Shown in pieces: positions 44,613 through 48,170 of a stretch of 64,000 bases of DNA. Positions within the stretch are counted from its first letter, which is position 1; each line of letters opens with the position of its first letter. Under the pieces are notes generated by a model that was given only the letters and a program-made list of their open reading frames with translations, made no database searches and was not told where the DNA came from. The DNA comes from Rhodohalobacter sp. SW132 (GTDB lineage Bacteria; Bacteroidota; Rhodothermia; Balneolales; Balneolaceae): positions 186,001 through 250,000 of the forward strand of contig NZ_QUOK01000007.1 in assembly GCF_003390325.1 (NCBI RefSeq). The letters are read 5' to 3'. The translations under genes were made by a program, and so were the position numbers.

Positions 44613-45520
44613 CTATTCGTTTCGATCTAAAAAGTGGGTATTACCTTCGACCCAGTGAAGAGTATTTGCTTTGGTAATGACCTTCGGCCCAAACCGATTC
44701 TTAATTTCGTCCATTGCTTTTATCCGGTTTACTTTATCTTCATCATTCTGAAAGAATACACTAAGCTGGTTCGTCTTATCAATCTTATGGGTTCCAAGGC
44801 CAATATTCCGGATTTCGATTCCTTCCCTGCTCGCCTTTTGTAAAGCCGGTTTAATTTGATCCATTAATTCCGCAAATAAATAATCATCAATGCTTGTATG
44901 AGCCGGAGTGACAAACCGAAATCCAACTCCTGGTTTCGCAGGATCATTAAACCCAAACATCCCCCAATATGAATTTGCACGGATGCCGTAGGCTCTCATC
45001 CGGTAGCAGACCTGTTGTACAGCAATGGCATATTCACCCTTTATCCGATCCATATCGGAAGAGCCTTCTGAAAAGGTGTGCCCGTAGCTAATGCCCTGCT
45101 TTGGCTTATAGTCCTCAGAGATATCTTCCATCACGCGCCCCTGATCTTTGCCGGTAATGGTCTGATAGAGCATTCTGCCAAAGTTCGCACCGAATAAACG
45201 AATGAAGGTTTTGATATTTCCTCGCTGAGCCACATCTCCAATGGTTTGTAGCCCTCAGCCAGGATATGCTCATATCTTCTCTTGCCGACATCCCAGACTT
45301 CATCCAGATCCAGTGGCCAGATTTCAGTTCGTCCATCATCAGTTGTTAATATCAACGTCCGACCCTTTGGTTTGTCTAAGCTGCTGGAGAGCTTGGCGTA
45401 GGTCTTGGAGCGGGCTATTCCTACAGCACCACTAGGTTTTAAAGTTTCAAAGATCTGCTTTTGAAGCCACACTGCAAATCCTTCAGCTTTACTGATTGGT
45501 ATTGGGAAAAAATCTATGTT
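44613..45520 (-). pseudogene. Frameshifted, 5'-truncated Y-family DNA polymerase
   Basis: Two overlapping minus-strand frames encode consecutive parts of a UmuC/DinB-like polymerase. The first (about 45520 down to 45131) has GFAVWLQKQIFETLKPSGAV, then GIARSKTYAKLSS, the palm-to-thumb part. The second (45233 to 44613) has the little-finger-type region (GISYGHTFSEGSSDMDRIK, YRMRAYGIRANSYWGMF). The N-terminal catalytic palm with its acidic residues is missing and a frameshift lies near 45131-45233. The gene is dead. What stands beyond its 5' break is an outer-membrane-like gene. Confidence 0.7.
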
Positions 45521-45595: not shown

Positions 45596-46447
45596 TCACT
45601 TTGGAATAAGCTGAACGACAAGTCCACATGACTGAGATAGGTTTTCTACAGTTGATGTGCCTCTAGAAGCTCCAATACGAATAATATCATTTAGTTCTAA
45701 CCCAAGTGTCATTTGACTACTAGCGAAAAAACCACCACGAGGTGTCTCAGTATTTAAATTAGCAAAAAAGTCGTTGTGCCCCCAGCCAACTCCTAAGTCA
45801 AATAGAAAAAAAAGCCTAATTGTGTCGTCAGTAGAGTGTTGGACTAACTGGTACTGAGGACCAAATTGAGTGACCACAGCAAATTTATCGGCTGCAGTAT
45901 TCAATGCAGGAAGATCTGCGCCAACAGTAAAAGTGGCCAACAGATCATGGCGCCTGACAAGTTGAGCCACATTTCCTTCCATACTAGTGACAGACCGGTA
46001 AGCAAGAGGAACTGAAACGAAAAGTGCGGCATTCCCACCACCTTGGAAGAACTGGTTTGCGGTTGAAACGGAATCATCCCCTGAGGTAATGAGAGCACCA
46101 AATCCTATTCTGGCATAGCCTAAATAGGAAAAATTTAGATTAGAACTTATAAGTTCGGTGTATAGTGATCTTTGATTCGAAACAATATTTAATGATGAGG
46201 CGCCACCAACTCGTAGTCCCCCGTAATATTTTTCGATTCTATCTTTTGTATTAAGGGCGTGTTTGGCTAAAATACCTCCCCTACACACAAACGTTCCATT
46301 GTTTTCTTCAGCTGCCCTCTTGCATAATGTTAAATCATCCGCATCAGTTTCAATTTCAATGAAACTTTGTGAAAGTGGAACCGAGAATGACTGTGAAAAT
46401 GCTGGCGTATTTATATAAAACCACACTATAATGTGATTTTCTGCCAT
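45596..46447 (-). CDS. Putative outer-membrane beta-barrel protein, probably 5'-truncated
   Basis: The 283-residue frame has many glycine-rich amphipathic strands (LGYARIGFGALITSGDD, FFLFDLGVGWGHNDFF, SSQMTLGLELNDIIRIGASR) and ends VVQLIPK, as in small Bacteroidota outer-membrane proteins. Its N-terminus is odd: MAENHIIVWF is encoded by a HipB-type operator, and the following PAFSQS looks like the cleavage end of a signal peptide whose hydrophobic core is missing. The hip promoter has probably replaced the gene's own 5' end. Family unknown. Confidence 0.45.
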   Translation of the reverse strand: MAENHIIVWFYINTPAFSQSFSVPLSQSFIEIETDADDLTLCKRAAEENNGTFVCRGGILAKHALNTKDRIEKYYGGLRVGGASSLNIVSNQRSLYTELISSNLNFSYLGYARIGFGALITSGDDSVSTANQFFQGGGNAALFVSVPLAYRSVTSMEGNVAQLVRRHDLLATFTVGADLPALNTAADKFAVVTQFGPQYQLVQHSTDDTIRLFFLFDLGVGWGHNDFFANLNTETPRGGFFASSQMTLGLELNDIIRIGASRGTSTVENLSQSCGLVVQLIPK

Positions 46448-46558
46448 CTATTAGAGCTGAGTTACAAAAATTTATCTAATATCACATTATAATGTGAATA
46501 TCGTTATATTCCTCTCTCAATCAGTAAGAATTATATCTAAAATCACATTAAAATGTTG
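46421..46558. promoter_or_regulatory. Three evenly spaced operators of the hip locus
   Basis: The perfect palindrome TCACATTATAATGTGA lies at 46482-46497. A 14/16 match (CCACACTATAATGTGA) lies at 46421-46436 and another (TCACATTAAAATGTTG) at 46543-46558, covering the hipB start codon at 46553. The start-to-start distances are both exactly 61 bp, close to six helical turns. HipB proteins autoregulate through such operators; this arrangement would place dimers on one DNA face. Confidence 0.7.
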
Positions 46559-46765
46559 GTTTCTGAGATTGGTAAACAGATAAAAGAGCGAAGGGACACA
46601 CTGGGGATTACGCAACCCGATCTTGCTGAGATGTCAGGAATCAGTGTGAATACTCTTTACAAAATTGAAACCGGTCAGGCCAACCCAACCTTAAAGGTGT
46701 TAAATAAAATAGCCGATATCCTGGGAATGGAGTTAACCCTGACCGTTAAGAAGCCTGAGCTGTAA
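46553..46765 (+). CDS. hipB: HipB-like XRE-family antitoxin
   Basis: This 70-residue HTH protein is essentially one XRE domain: LGITQPDLAEMSGISVNTLY, then KIETGQANPTLKVLNKIADI and LGMELTLTVKK. Length and ending match HipB. The start codon lies inside the third operator, so binding would block its own translation start and promoter. It begins a tight three-gene operon with hipS- and hipT-like genes (2 bp gaps). Confidence 0.87.
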   Translation: MLVSEIGKQIKERRDTLGITQPDLAEMSGISVNTLYKIETGQANPTLKVLNKIADILGMELTLTVKKPEL

Positions 46766-46767
46766 GT

Positions 46768-47094
46768 ATGAAGTCAGCCAATGTTTATAGAAATGGTGAA
46801 CGTGTTGGAGTTCTTATCCGGCATGAAAGAAATTCGTATGAGTTCGAATACGATGATCAATGGTTCAACAATCCGGAGAAACCGGCTGTCAGTTTAACCA
46901 TGCCCAAAAGCAAGAAAACCTATAAGGCCGATCATCTGTTCCCTTTTTTCTATAATCTTTTATCGGAAGGGGTGAACCGGAAACTTCAGTCGAGGCAATT
47001 GAAAATTGATGAGAAGAATTACTTTGATTTACTCTTGGAAACGGCTCAAACAGATACTATAGGCGCAATCACATTGAAATCAAAGAATAAATAG
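46768..47094 (+). CDS. hipS: HipS-like protein (free HipA N-terminal domain)
   Basis: This 108-residue protein corresponds to the N-subdomain-1 of HipA: VYRNGERVGVLIRHE, YDDQWFNNPEKPAVSLTMP and HLFPFFYNLLSEGVNRK are signature patterns of that domain. In the HipBST systems this domain is a separate protein that neutralises the kinase. It is 2 bp after hipB and 2 bp before the kinase gene. Calling it HipS follows from gene order and size; function is inferred. Confidence 0.8.
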   Translation: MKSANVYRNGERVGVLIRHERNSYEFEYDDQWFNNPEKPAVSLTMPKSKKTYKADHLFPFFYNLLSEGVNRKLQSRQLKIDEKNYFDLLLETAQTDTIGAITLKSKNK

Positions 47095-47096
47095 AG

Positions 47097-48119
47097 TTGA
47101 GTTTACCCAATATTAAATATTGCCCCGGAACTCTGGCAGAAGGATTTGATACATTCAGCCCCACCTGTTTAAAACGGGTGTTTAACGGCAAGAAAGTCAG
47201 TCACATTCTTCCTTATGATCCGCCGGATATGAGTGAAGAGGATGCCGAAAAGTTTCAGCAGAACCGAAAGCGGCTTTCTATCTCCGGTGTACAGGAGAAG
47301 GTGTCTTTATTGCTTGAAAAAAACACGCTTCGTCTAACGGAAGAGGGTGAGCAGGGAACCTACATTCTGAAACCCATTCCAAGAGATTTGCGGAAAGTGG
47401 ACCAGGTACCTGCCAATGAACATCTGACGATGCAGATAGCCAGGCAGGTATTTGATATTCACACCGCAGAAAATGCCCTGATCTTTTTTAAGAACGGCGA
47501 TCCCGCCTACATTACAAAACGGTTTGATGTGGCCGAGGATGGAAAAAAGATTGGTAAAGAAGATTTTGCTACTCTTGCAGGGAAAACAGCTGAGACGGCC
47601 GGGCCGAATTTCAAATATGAATACAGCTACGAGGAGATGGCAGAGCTCGTTCAGAAATACATCCCGGCAGCCATGGTGGAACTGGAAAAGCTTTTTTCCC
47701 TGATTCTGTTTAACTACCTGATCTGCAACGGGGATGCTCATCTGAAAAACTATGGGGTGATTGAAACGAAACAGGGAGATTATATACTGAGCCCTGCATA
47801 CGATTTGATCAATACCAGCCTGCACGTAGATGACACTGCGATGGCGTTGGATGAAGGTCTTTTTAAGGACGACTTCACCACAGAAAGTTTTGAAGCCAAT
47901 GCGTTCTATGCATACGATGACTTCTATGAGTTCGGCTTGAAAATCGGATTGGTAGAATCTCGAATGGTAAAGATTCTGAATCATTTCAGGTCACACCAAG
48001 AAAATGTTCAATCATTAACAAAGCGCAGTTTTCTTAATGAGGAAATGAAGAGAGCCTACATGGATTCATACCTGAATAAACTGAAGGCGCTAAATTACTC
48101 GATGGAAGGGAGGGTTTGA
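47097..48119 (+). CDS. hipT: HipT-like serine kinase toxin (HipA kinase core)
   Basis: This 340-residue kinase lacks the HipA N-subdomain, which is the gene before it. It starts at TTG. The P-loop-like SISGVQEKV is at residues 61-69, with Ser61 and Ser63 in the same SIS arrangement as the two phosphoserines of HipT. Catalytic NYLICNGDAHLKNYGVI is near 218 and the metal-binding LSPAYDLINT near 236. HipA/HipT kinases phosphorylate aminoacyl-tRNA synthetases (GltX for HipA, TrpS for HipT) and halt translation. Its exact target is not visible from sequence. Confidence 0.87.
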   Translation: MSLPNIKYCPGTLAEGFDTFSPTCLKRVFNGKKVSHILPYDPPDMSEEDAEKFQQNRKRLSISGVQEKVSLLLEKNTLRLTEEGEQGTYILKPIPRDLRKVDQVPANEHLTMQIARQVFDIHTAENALIFFKNGDPAYITKRFDVAEDGKKIGKEDFATLAGKTAETAGPNFKYEYSYEEMAELVQKYIPAAMVELEKLFSLILFNYLICNGDAHLKNYGVIETKQGDYILSPAYDLINTSLHVDDTAMALDEGLFKDDFTTESFEANAFYAYDDFYEFGLKIGLVESRMVKILNHFRSHQENVQSLTKRSFLNEEMKRAYMDSYLNKLKALNYSMEGRV

Positions 48120-48170
48120 GTGGGGTGTGAATATCTCACTCAAAAGCATTAGATAATTCAAACAGATCGA

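Follow-up and report, generated by a model that had tools for sequence, protein, structure and literature searches.

The hipB-hipS-hipT locus of Rhodohalobacter sp. SW132 carries three palindromic operators at an exact pitch of 61 bp, and this pitch is kept in its relatives of the same kinase class (60-62 bp in 93 of the 95 S-psi-S loci with a measurable array). Most likely, the locus is a mobile and autoregulated module of the S-psi-S kinase class, whose pitch goes with the toxin/antitoxin class and not with the HipB recognition sequence. HipB dimers together with HipT, and possibly HipS, probably form a cooperative repression complex on the three operators at this fixed pitch. The features of the window, i.e., the whole stretch of 64,000 nucleotides that was analysed, are the following.

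46410-48121, + strand: whole module, operators plus hipB-hipS-hipT; a 1712-bp block 97.8% identical to the copy on contig C10
46421-46436, no strand: operator O1, CCACACTATAATGTGA, 2 mismatches; its register, -122 versus the start-codon site, is also found in homologues
46482-46497, no strand: operator O2, TCACATTATAATGTGA, perfect palindrome; its register, -61, is also found in homologues
46505-46510, + strand: candidate -10/-7 promoter element TATATT just 3' of O2, weak and inferred; retained in several Balneolaceae relatives
46543-46558, no strand: operator O3, TCACATTAAAATGTTG, 3 mismatches; spans the hipB start codon; found in 53/53 class-A1 homologues
46553-46765, + strand: hipB, 70-aa HTH repressor (HTH_3, 8.4e-16; TIGR03070, 1.4e-17, under the cut-off of that model; PDB HipB(Lp) 8ezt, 2e-5)
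46768-47094, + strand: hipS, 108-aa free HipA N-subdomain 1, predicted antitoxin (Couple_hipA, 4.5e-23; TIGR03071, 5e-29; top PDB match HipS(Lp) 7vkb, 1.4e-12)
47097-48119, + strand: hipT, 340-aa HipA-like kinase with a TTG start, predicted toxin (HipA_C, 2.7e-40; PDB HipT(Lp), 1.8e-30, and HipT(Ec), 1.2e-18)

By its anatomy the locus is a HipBST-type module, as the initial annotation had it: the three genes are adjacent with gaps of 2 bp at both junctions, and the profiles and the PDB matches to HipT(Lp) and HipS(Lp) agree; the toxin and antitoxin roles are predicted. There is no single HipA chain with a fused N-subdomain 1, as in HipBA, the ORFs being separate. The outcome that the initial annotation had named against itself, i.e., a fused kinase and N-domain in homologues, is not seen, since hipS and hipT are separate in every surveyed close homologue. 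The nearest solved HipT is that of Legionella. The Gly-rich loop of HipT contains an S/T-psi-x autophosphorylation motif, S61-I62-S63, which aligns with Ser57-Ile58-Ser59 of E. coli O127 HipT; the parallel drawn earlier with the HipT phosphoserines thus holds. The catalytic positions D213 and D236 (N-G-D213-A-H and P-A-Y-D236, invariant) align, at the level of sequence, with those of known HipT. HipS has a Val after the E-G motif, at the position of the Trp65 wedge, a feature which occurs in some HipS, not all, and is not required (PMC10627512).

O1, O2 and O3 are the sole TCACATTATAATGTGA-type palindromes within the window. Their starts are confirmed at 46421, 46482 and 46543, i.e., pitches of 61 and 61 bp and gaps of 45 bp, and the hipB ATG (46553-46555) lies inside O3, as had been claimed. 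Three evenly spaced inverted-repeat operators are thus present 5' of hipB, as in the HipBST_Lp-type array. Taken by themselves, the three matches are only modestly beyond chance: with at most 3 mismatches, shuffled sequence gives a mean of 0.47 matches and 3/100 shuffles reach three. The spacing is beyond chance, because the equally spaced operators are enclosed in a 33-nt direct repeat and the pitch is kept in relatives. Consensus matches in the window being weak evidence alone, conservation in relatives was used as the test. Many Bacteroidota relatives have a TTG...TAnnTTTG promoter between O2 and O3 instead of TATATT.

The comparison of operator spacing across homologous loci, which had been proposed with the initial annotation, shows that the pitch is kept. 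In a set of 97 related genomes, homologues whose HipS identity ranges from 86 down to 51% display 61/61, or 61/62/61 when four sites are present; one homologue at 57% (L017) has no array by the consensus of the window. A survey was then made of 80 loci in GTDB genomes, most of them from Bacteroidota and Balneolota; the loci were picked by HipT or HipS similarity, many come from MAGs, and the survey covered HipBST other than those of Gammaproteobacteria. In the 53 class-A1 loci, TCACAnTATAnTGTGA is localized at 0 (over the hipB start), -61/-62 and -122/-123, with no further recurring offset within -450 to +200. In 20 class-A2 loci, which have a different HipB, GTGCAnTATAnTGCAC is found at the same offsets. 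Site calls depend on a score threshold, with which only two sites are seen in roughly one class-A array out of three, a point against the cooperative complex. The O1-O2 spacer is exactly 45 bp in 57/62 loci, and the identity of these spacers (38-39% vs. 31-33% when shuffled) is near saturation. Shared ancestry without selection therefore fails as an account, since the spacers are near saturation and yet constant in length; such strong conservation implies that something selects for even spacing. A motif-free scan leads to the same value, i.e., 60-62 bp in 83/98 S-psi-S loci vs. 4/97 shuffles. No HipS match was found in phage records.

The letters of the operators change while the pitch stays. 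The HipB recognition-helix class matches the operator class in 93/93 class-A loci. By parsimony, the recognition class switches 7 times on the HipT tree with a constant ruler. It must be noted that 3 of these switches are on strongly supported branches; the recognition-helix co-variation amounts to only three strongly supported independent pairs, which weighs against the cooperative complex. At least five operator sequences retain a pitch of 60-61 bp, including the other letters found in L118, L104, L199 and L200. The same pitch is observed in the plasmid-borne modules of Flammeovirga, Runella, Parabacteroides and Bacteroides and, in another phylum (Campylobacterota), in one such module of Arcobacter cloacae. 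The pitch is not bound to the start-codon register, since the Runella and Arcobacter arrays sit upstream of the start codon.

A wider sample (394 genomes of the group), with Gly-loop classes as defined in PMC10627512, leads to three rulers, the de novo scan having been interpreted manually for four class assignments (loci without the standard motif): (i) 61 bp for the S-psi-S loop, in the 93 of 95 loci already mentioned; (ii) 40-41 bp for the x-psi-T/P loop (53/53; operator TATACC-N6-GGTATA); (iii) 70-73 bp for the S-psi-Q/A loop (15/16; operator TTACYG-N6-CRGTAA). Motif-free recovery is weaker for the last two classes than for S-psi-S: 34/54 loci, plus 13 at double pitch, for the 40-bp class (4/54 when shuffled) and 11/17 for the 71-bp class (0/17 when shuffled). 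The HipS residue after the E-G motif is Val in 77/97 loci of the 61-bp class and Trp in 53/53 of the 40-bp class. On a quick HipT tree, the ruler changes 6 times vs. 59 with shuffled labels, a contrast due mostly to three large clades; the subfamilies being clades, the link between class and ruler rests on few evolutionary events. The exceptions are off by ~10 bp, i.e., about one turn (L175 has 61 and not 71 bp; L182 and L198 have 70/71 and not 61 bp).

In fused HipBA of the phylum, the visible arrays have a pitch of either 27 or 40-41 bp. Eight fused hipBA operons (L125, L136, L137, L142, L148, L206, L209, L210) combine TATACC/TATCCC-type operators with a 27-bp pitch, i.e., letters like those of the 40-bp HipBST class with a different spacing. 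The rule that all rulers are whole helix turns was considered and rejected: 40.5-41, 61 and 71 fit ~10.2 bp/turn, but 27 (fused HipBA) and 28 (E. coli) do not.

The comparison with known systems must be made class by class. The Legionella pneumophila HipBST (PMC10653801) shares with the window the hipB-hipS-hipT order and three evenly spaced upstream operators. It differs from it by operators of 18 nt with other letters and published gaps of 53 bp (~71 bp centre to centre) against 45 bp, by a nearest operator located 24 nt upstream of the start codon whereas O3 covers it, and by an S-psi-Q loop instead of S-psi-S. In Bacteroidota, the S-psi-Q/A class has a modal gap of 53 bp, equal to the Legionella gap (PMC10653801), and the HipT of one locus of this 71-bp branch (L035) matches HipT_Lp with E 3e-108. 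This branch, and not the locus of the window, is the direct counterpart of Legionella HipBST. A Legionella plasmid homologue is annotated as an injected effector. The E. coli O127:H6 HipBST (PMC10627512, PMC6581861) resembles the window by its split HipS/HipT, its S-I-S Gly-rich loop and its HipT Asp210 and Asp233, to which aspartates of the window HipT correspond, and differs by the Trp65 wedge of HipS (Val in the window). Its operators are not described in the papers retrieved, and the Legionella motifs are reported to be absent from it (PMC10653801). In E. coli K-12 HipBA, a palindromic operator array read by HipB likewise controls the operon; however, the toxin is unsplit and the four TATCC-N8-GGATA operators are spaced by 28, 39 and 28 bp.

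The cooperative complex proposed here would work as follows. The three palindromes would be read by HipB dimers, each carrying HipT with or without HipS, and adjacent complexes would be held 61 bp (~5.8 turns) apart, which would place the sites roughly on one side of the helix. Complexes on neighbouring sites would touch, directly or via bent DNA, so as to form one repressing HipB-HipT(-HipS) assembly through direct contact or phased DNA bending. They would jointly close the promoter located between O2 and O3, and occupancy of O3 would additionally block the start of hipB transcription or translation. Repression would be cooperative and dependent on HipT/HipS. Binding of the sites by HipB is strongly implied, the co-variation of recognition helix and operator letters being indirect support for it. 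In Legionella, all three evenly spaced operators are bound in vitro by HipB_Lp, and HipT/HipS become part of the complex (PMC10653801). In E. coli, HipBT/HipBST is a better repressor than HipB alone and HipBST hexamers self-associate in SAXS (PMC10627512); a HipA7 N-domain mutation is thought to disrupt HipA dimerisation on the operator (PMC7180214). HipB (70 aa) alone is too small to span the 45-bp gap. Since the pitch tracks the kinase class and not the HipB recognition class, HipT/HipS is the likely ruler. Any contact would need bent DNA or extended oligomers, because 61 bp (~207 Å when straight) exceeds one HipBST hexamer (135 Å). Against the cooperative complex, the authors of the Legionella study observed what may be intermediate occupancy, and not strong cooperativity (PMC10653801). 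Of the cooperative looping or filament suggested by the initial annotation, the conserved even spacing stands and cooperative assembly appears the best reading, but three operators are too few for a filament.

Other explanations of the even spacing were weighed. It is rather unlikely that each HipB dimer bends DNA alone and that phased bends, not protein contacts, build the repressing structure: rulers of 40.5-41, 61 and 71 bp near 4, 6 and 7 turns (at a helix repeat of ~10.2 bp) and the few exceptions shifted by ~10 bp fit this idea, but a ruler which follows the kinase class points to HipT/HipS, and the 27-bp arrays of fused HipBA are not near whole turns. Somewhat less probable still, the promoter itself could set the spacing, O2 and O3 flanking the region contacted by RNA polymerase without any need for mutual contact of HipB complexes. 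The Bacteroidota-type TTG ... TAnnTTTG indeed fits the O2-O3 interval in many relatives; nevertheless, O1-O2 is also 61 bp though upstream of the promoter, the arrays of L226, L228 and L229 are shifted upstream of the start codon with 61 bp kept, and other HipT classes of the same phylum use 40 or 71 bp. Recognition of the palindromes by a regulator other than HipB is very improbable: an orphan hipS (L018/L203) has two such sites 61 bp apart and no adjoining hipB, but the operator letters fit the HipB recognition helix in all 93 loci, and the arrays are localized at the hipB promoter and were duplicated along with the genes. Least credible is a functionless relic of tandem duplication or shared ancestry, to which the 33-nt repeat around the sites and the common ancestry of subfamily members would lend themselves, since the near-saturated spacers are constant in length across dozens of distant loci.

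Besides the cooperative complex itself, a broader proposal is offered tentatively, as one that may well prove wrong: each HipT/HipS class would have its own DNA ruler (40, 61 or 71 bp), and the kinase-antitoxin pair, not HipB, would set the pitch of an ordered promoter array, so that promoter occupancy would report on the state of the toxin, in terms of assembly or phosphorylation.

The genome contains a second 61-bp-type copy (C10:131623-132293), again with three operators at this pitch. The shared 1712-bp block starts 11 bp 5' of O1 and stops 2 bp 3' of the hipT stop codon; a single duplicated block covers both operators and genes, which therefore move as one unit. At 97.8% identity over 1712 bp, the C10 copy is not independent evidence for the pitch. 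The same genome has a second HipBST type (C10:135417, C7:259826), likewise tripartite and with three evenly spaced palindromes, but unlike the module of the window by its operator (TATACCCGATAAGGTATA), its 40-bp pitch, its T-V-P HipT loop and a Trp at the Trp65 position of HipS. There are thus two copies of each type (C10:131623-135713; C7:232768-260122), the two types being ~3.5 kb apart on C10 and ~27 kb apart on C7.

Further observations concern the surroundings of such modules. The divergent ORF of the window (45596-46447, - strand) owes its first 12 codons to the HipBST module, whose boundary is at 46410, and continues with what looks like a signal-peptide end (NTPAFSQ). The module may therefore have inserted into the 5' end of the gene, of which a search of 92 genomes of the family gave no intact homologue. 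At 44613-45472 (- strand), ORFs that overlap in different frames show a likeness to portions of a Y-family DNA polymerase (IMS_C, a weak match with E 0.0023, under the Pfam cut-off), possibly a frameshifted or broken gene. Elsewhere, the orphan hipS (L203:6308-6649, contig C3 of genome G045; also L018) is immediately preceded by two such palindromes with the 61-bp spacing, and neither hipB nor hipT adjoins it; its neighbours are an AbiEi-like antitoxin, a DUF2779 protein, an XRE regulator and an integrase. Perhaps it is a stolen antitoxin carried by a mobile element.

Triple operators at even spacing had already been published for one HipBST branch (Legionella, 2023, PMC10653801). The papers retrieved, which do not include subscription papers, give no operators for other HipBST classes. 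What appears new is the occurrence of rulers of 61 and 40 bp, their association with the loop class and a pitch that does not depend on the operator letters. The way in which HipA-type kinases are kept inactive on their promoters is a question linked to persistence. A pitch which outlasts the saturation of the spacers and the replacement of the operator letters, and which tracks the kinase class, strongly suggests that selection acts on higher-order complexes on DNA; the promoter sequence offers a simple means to find and class HipBST modules.
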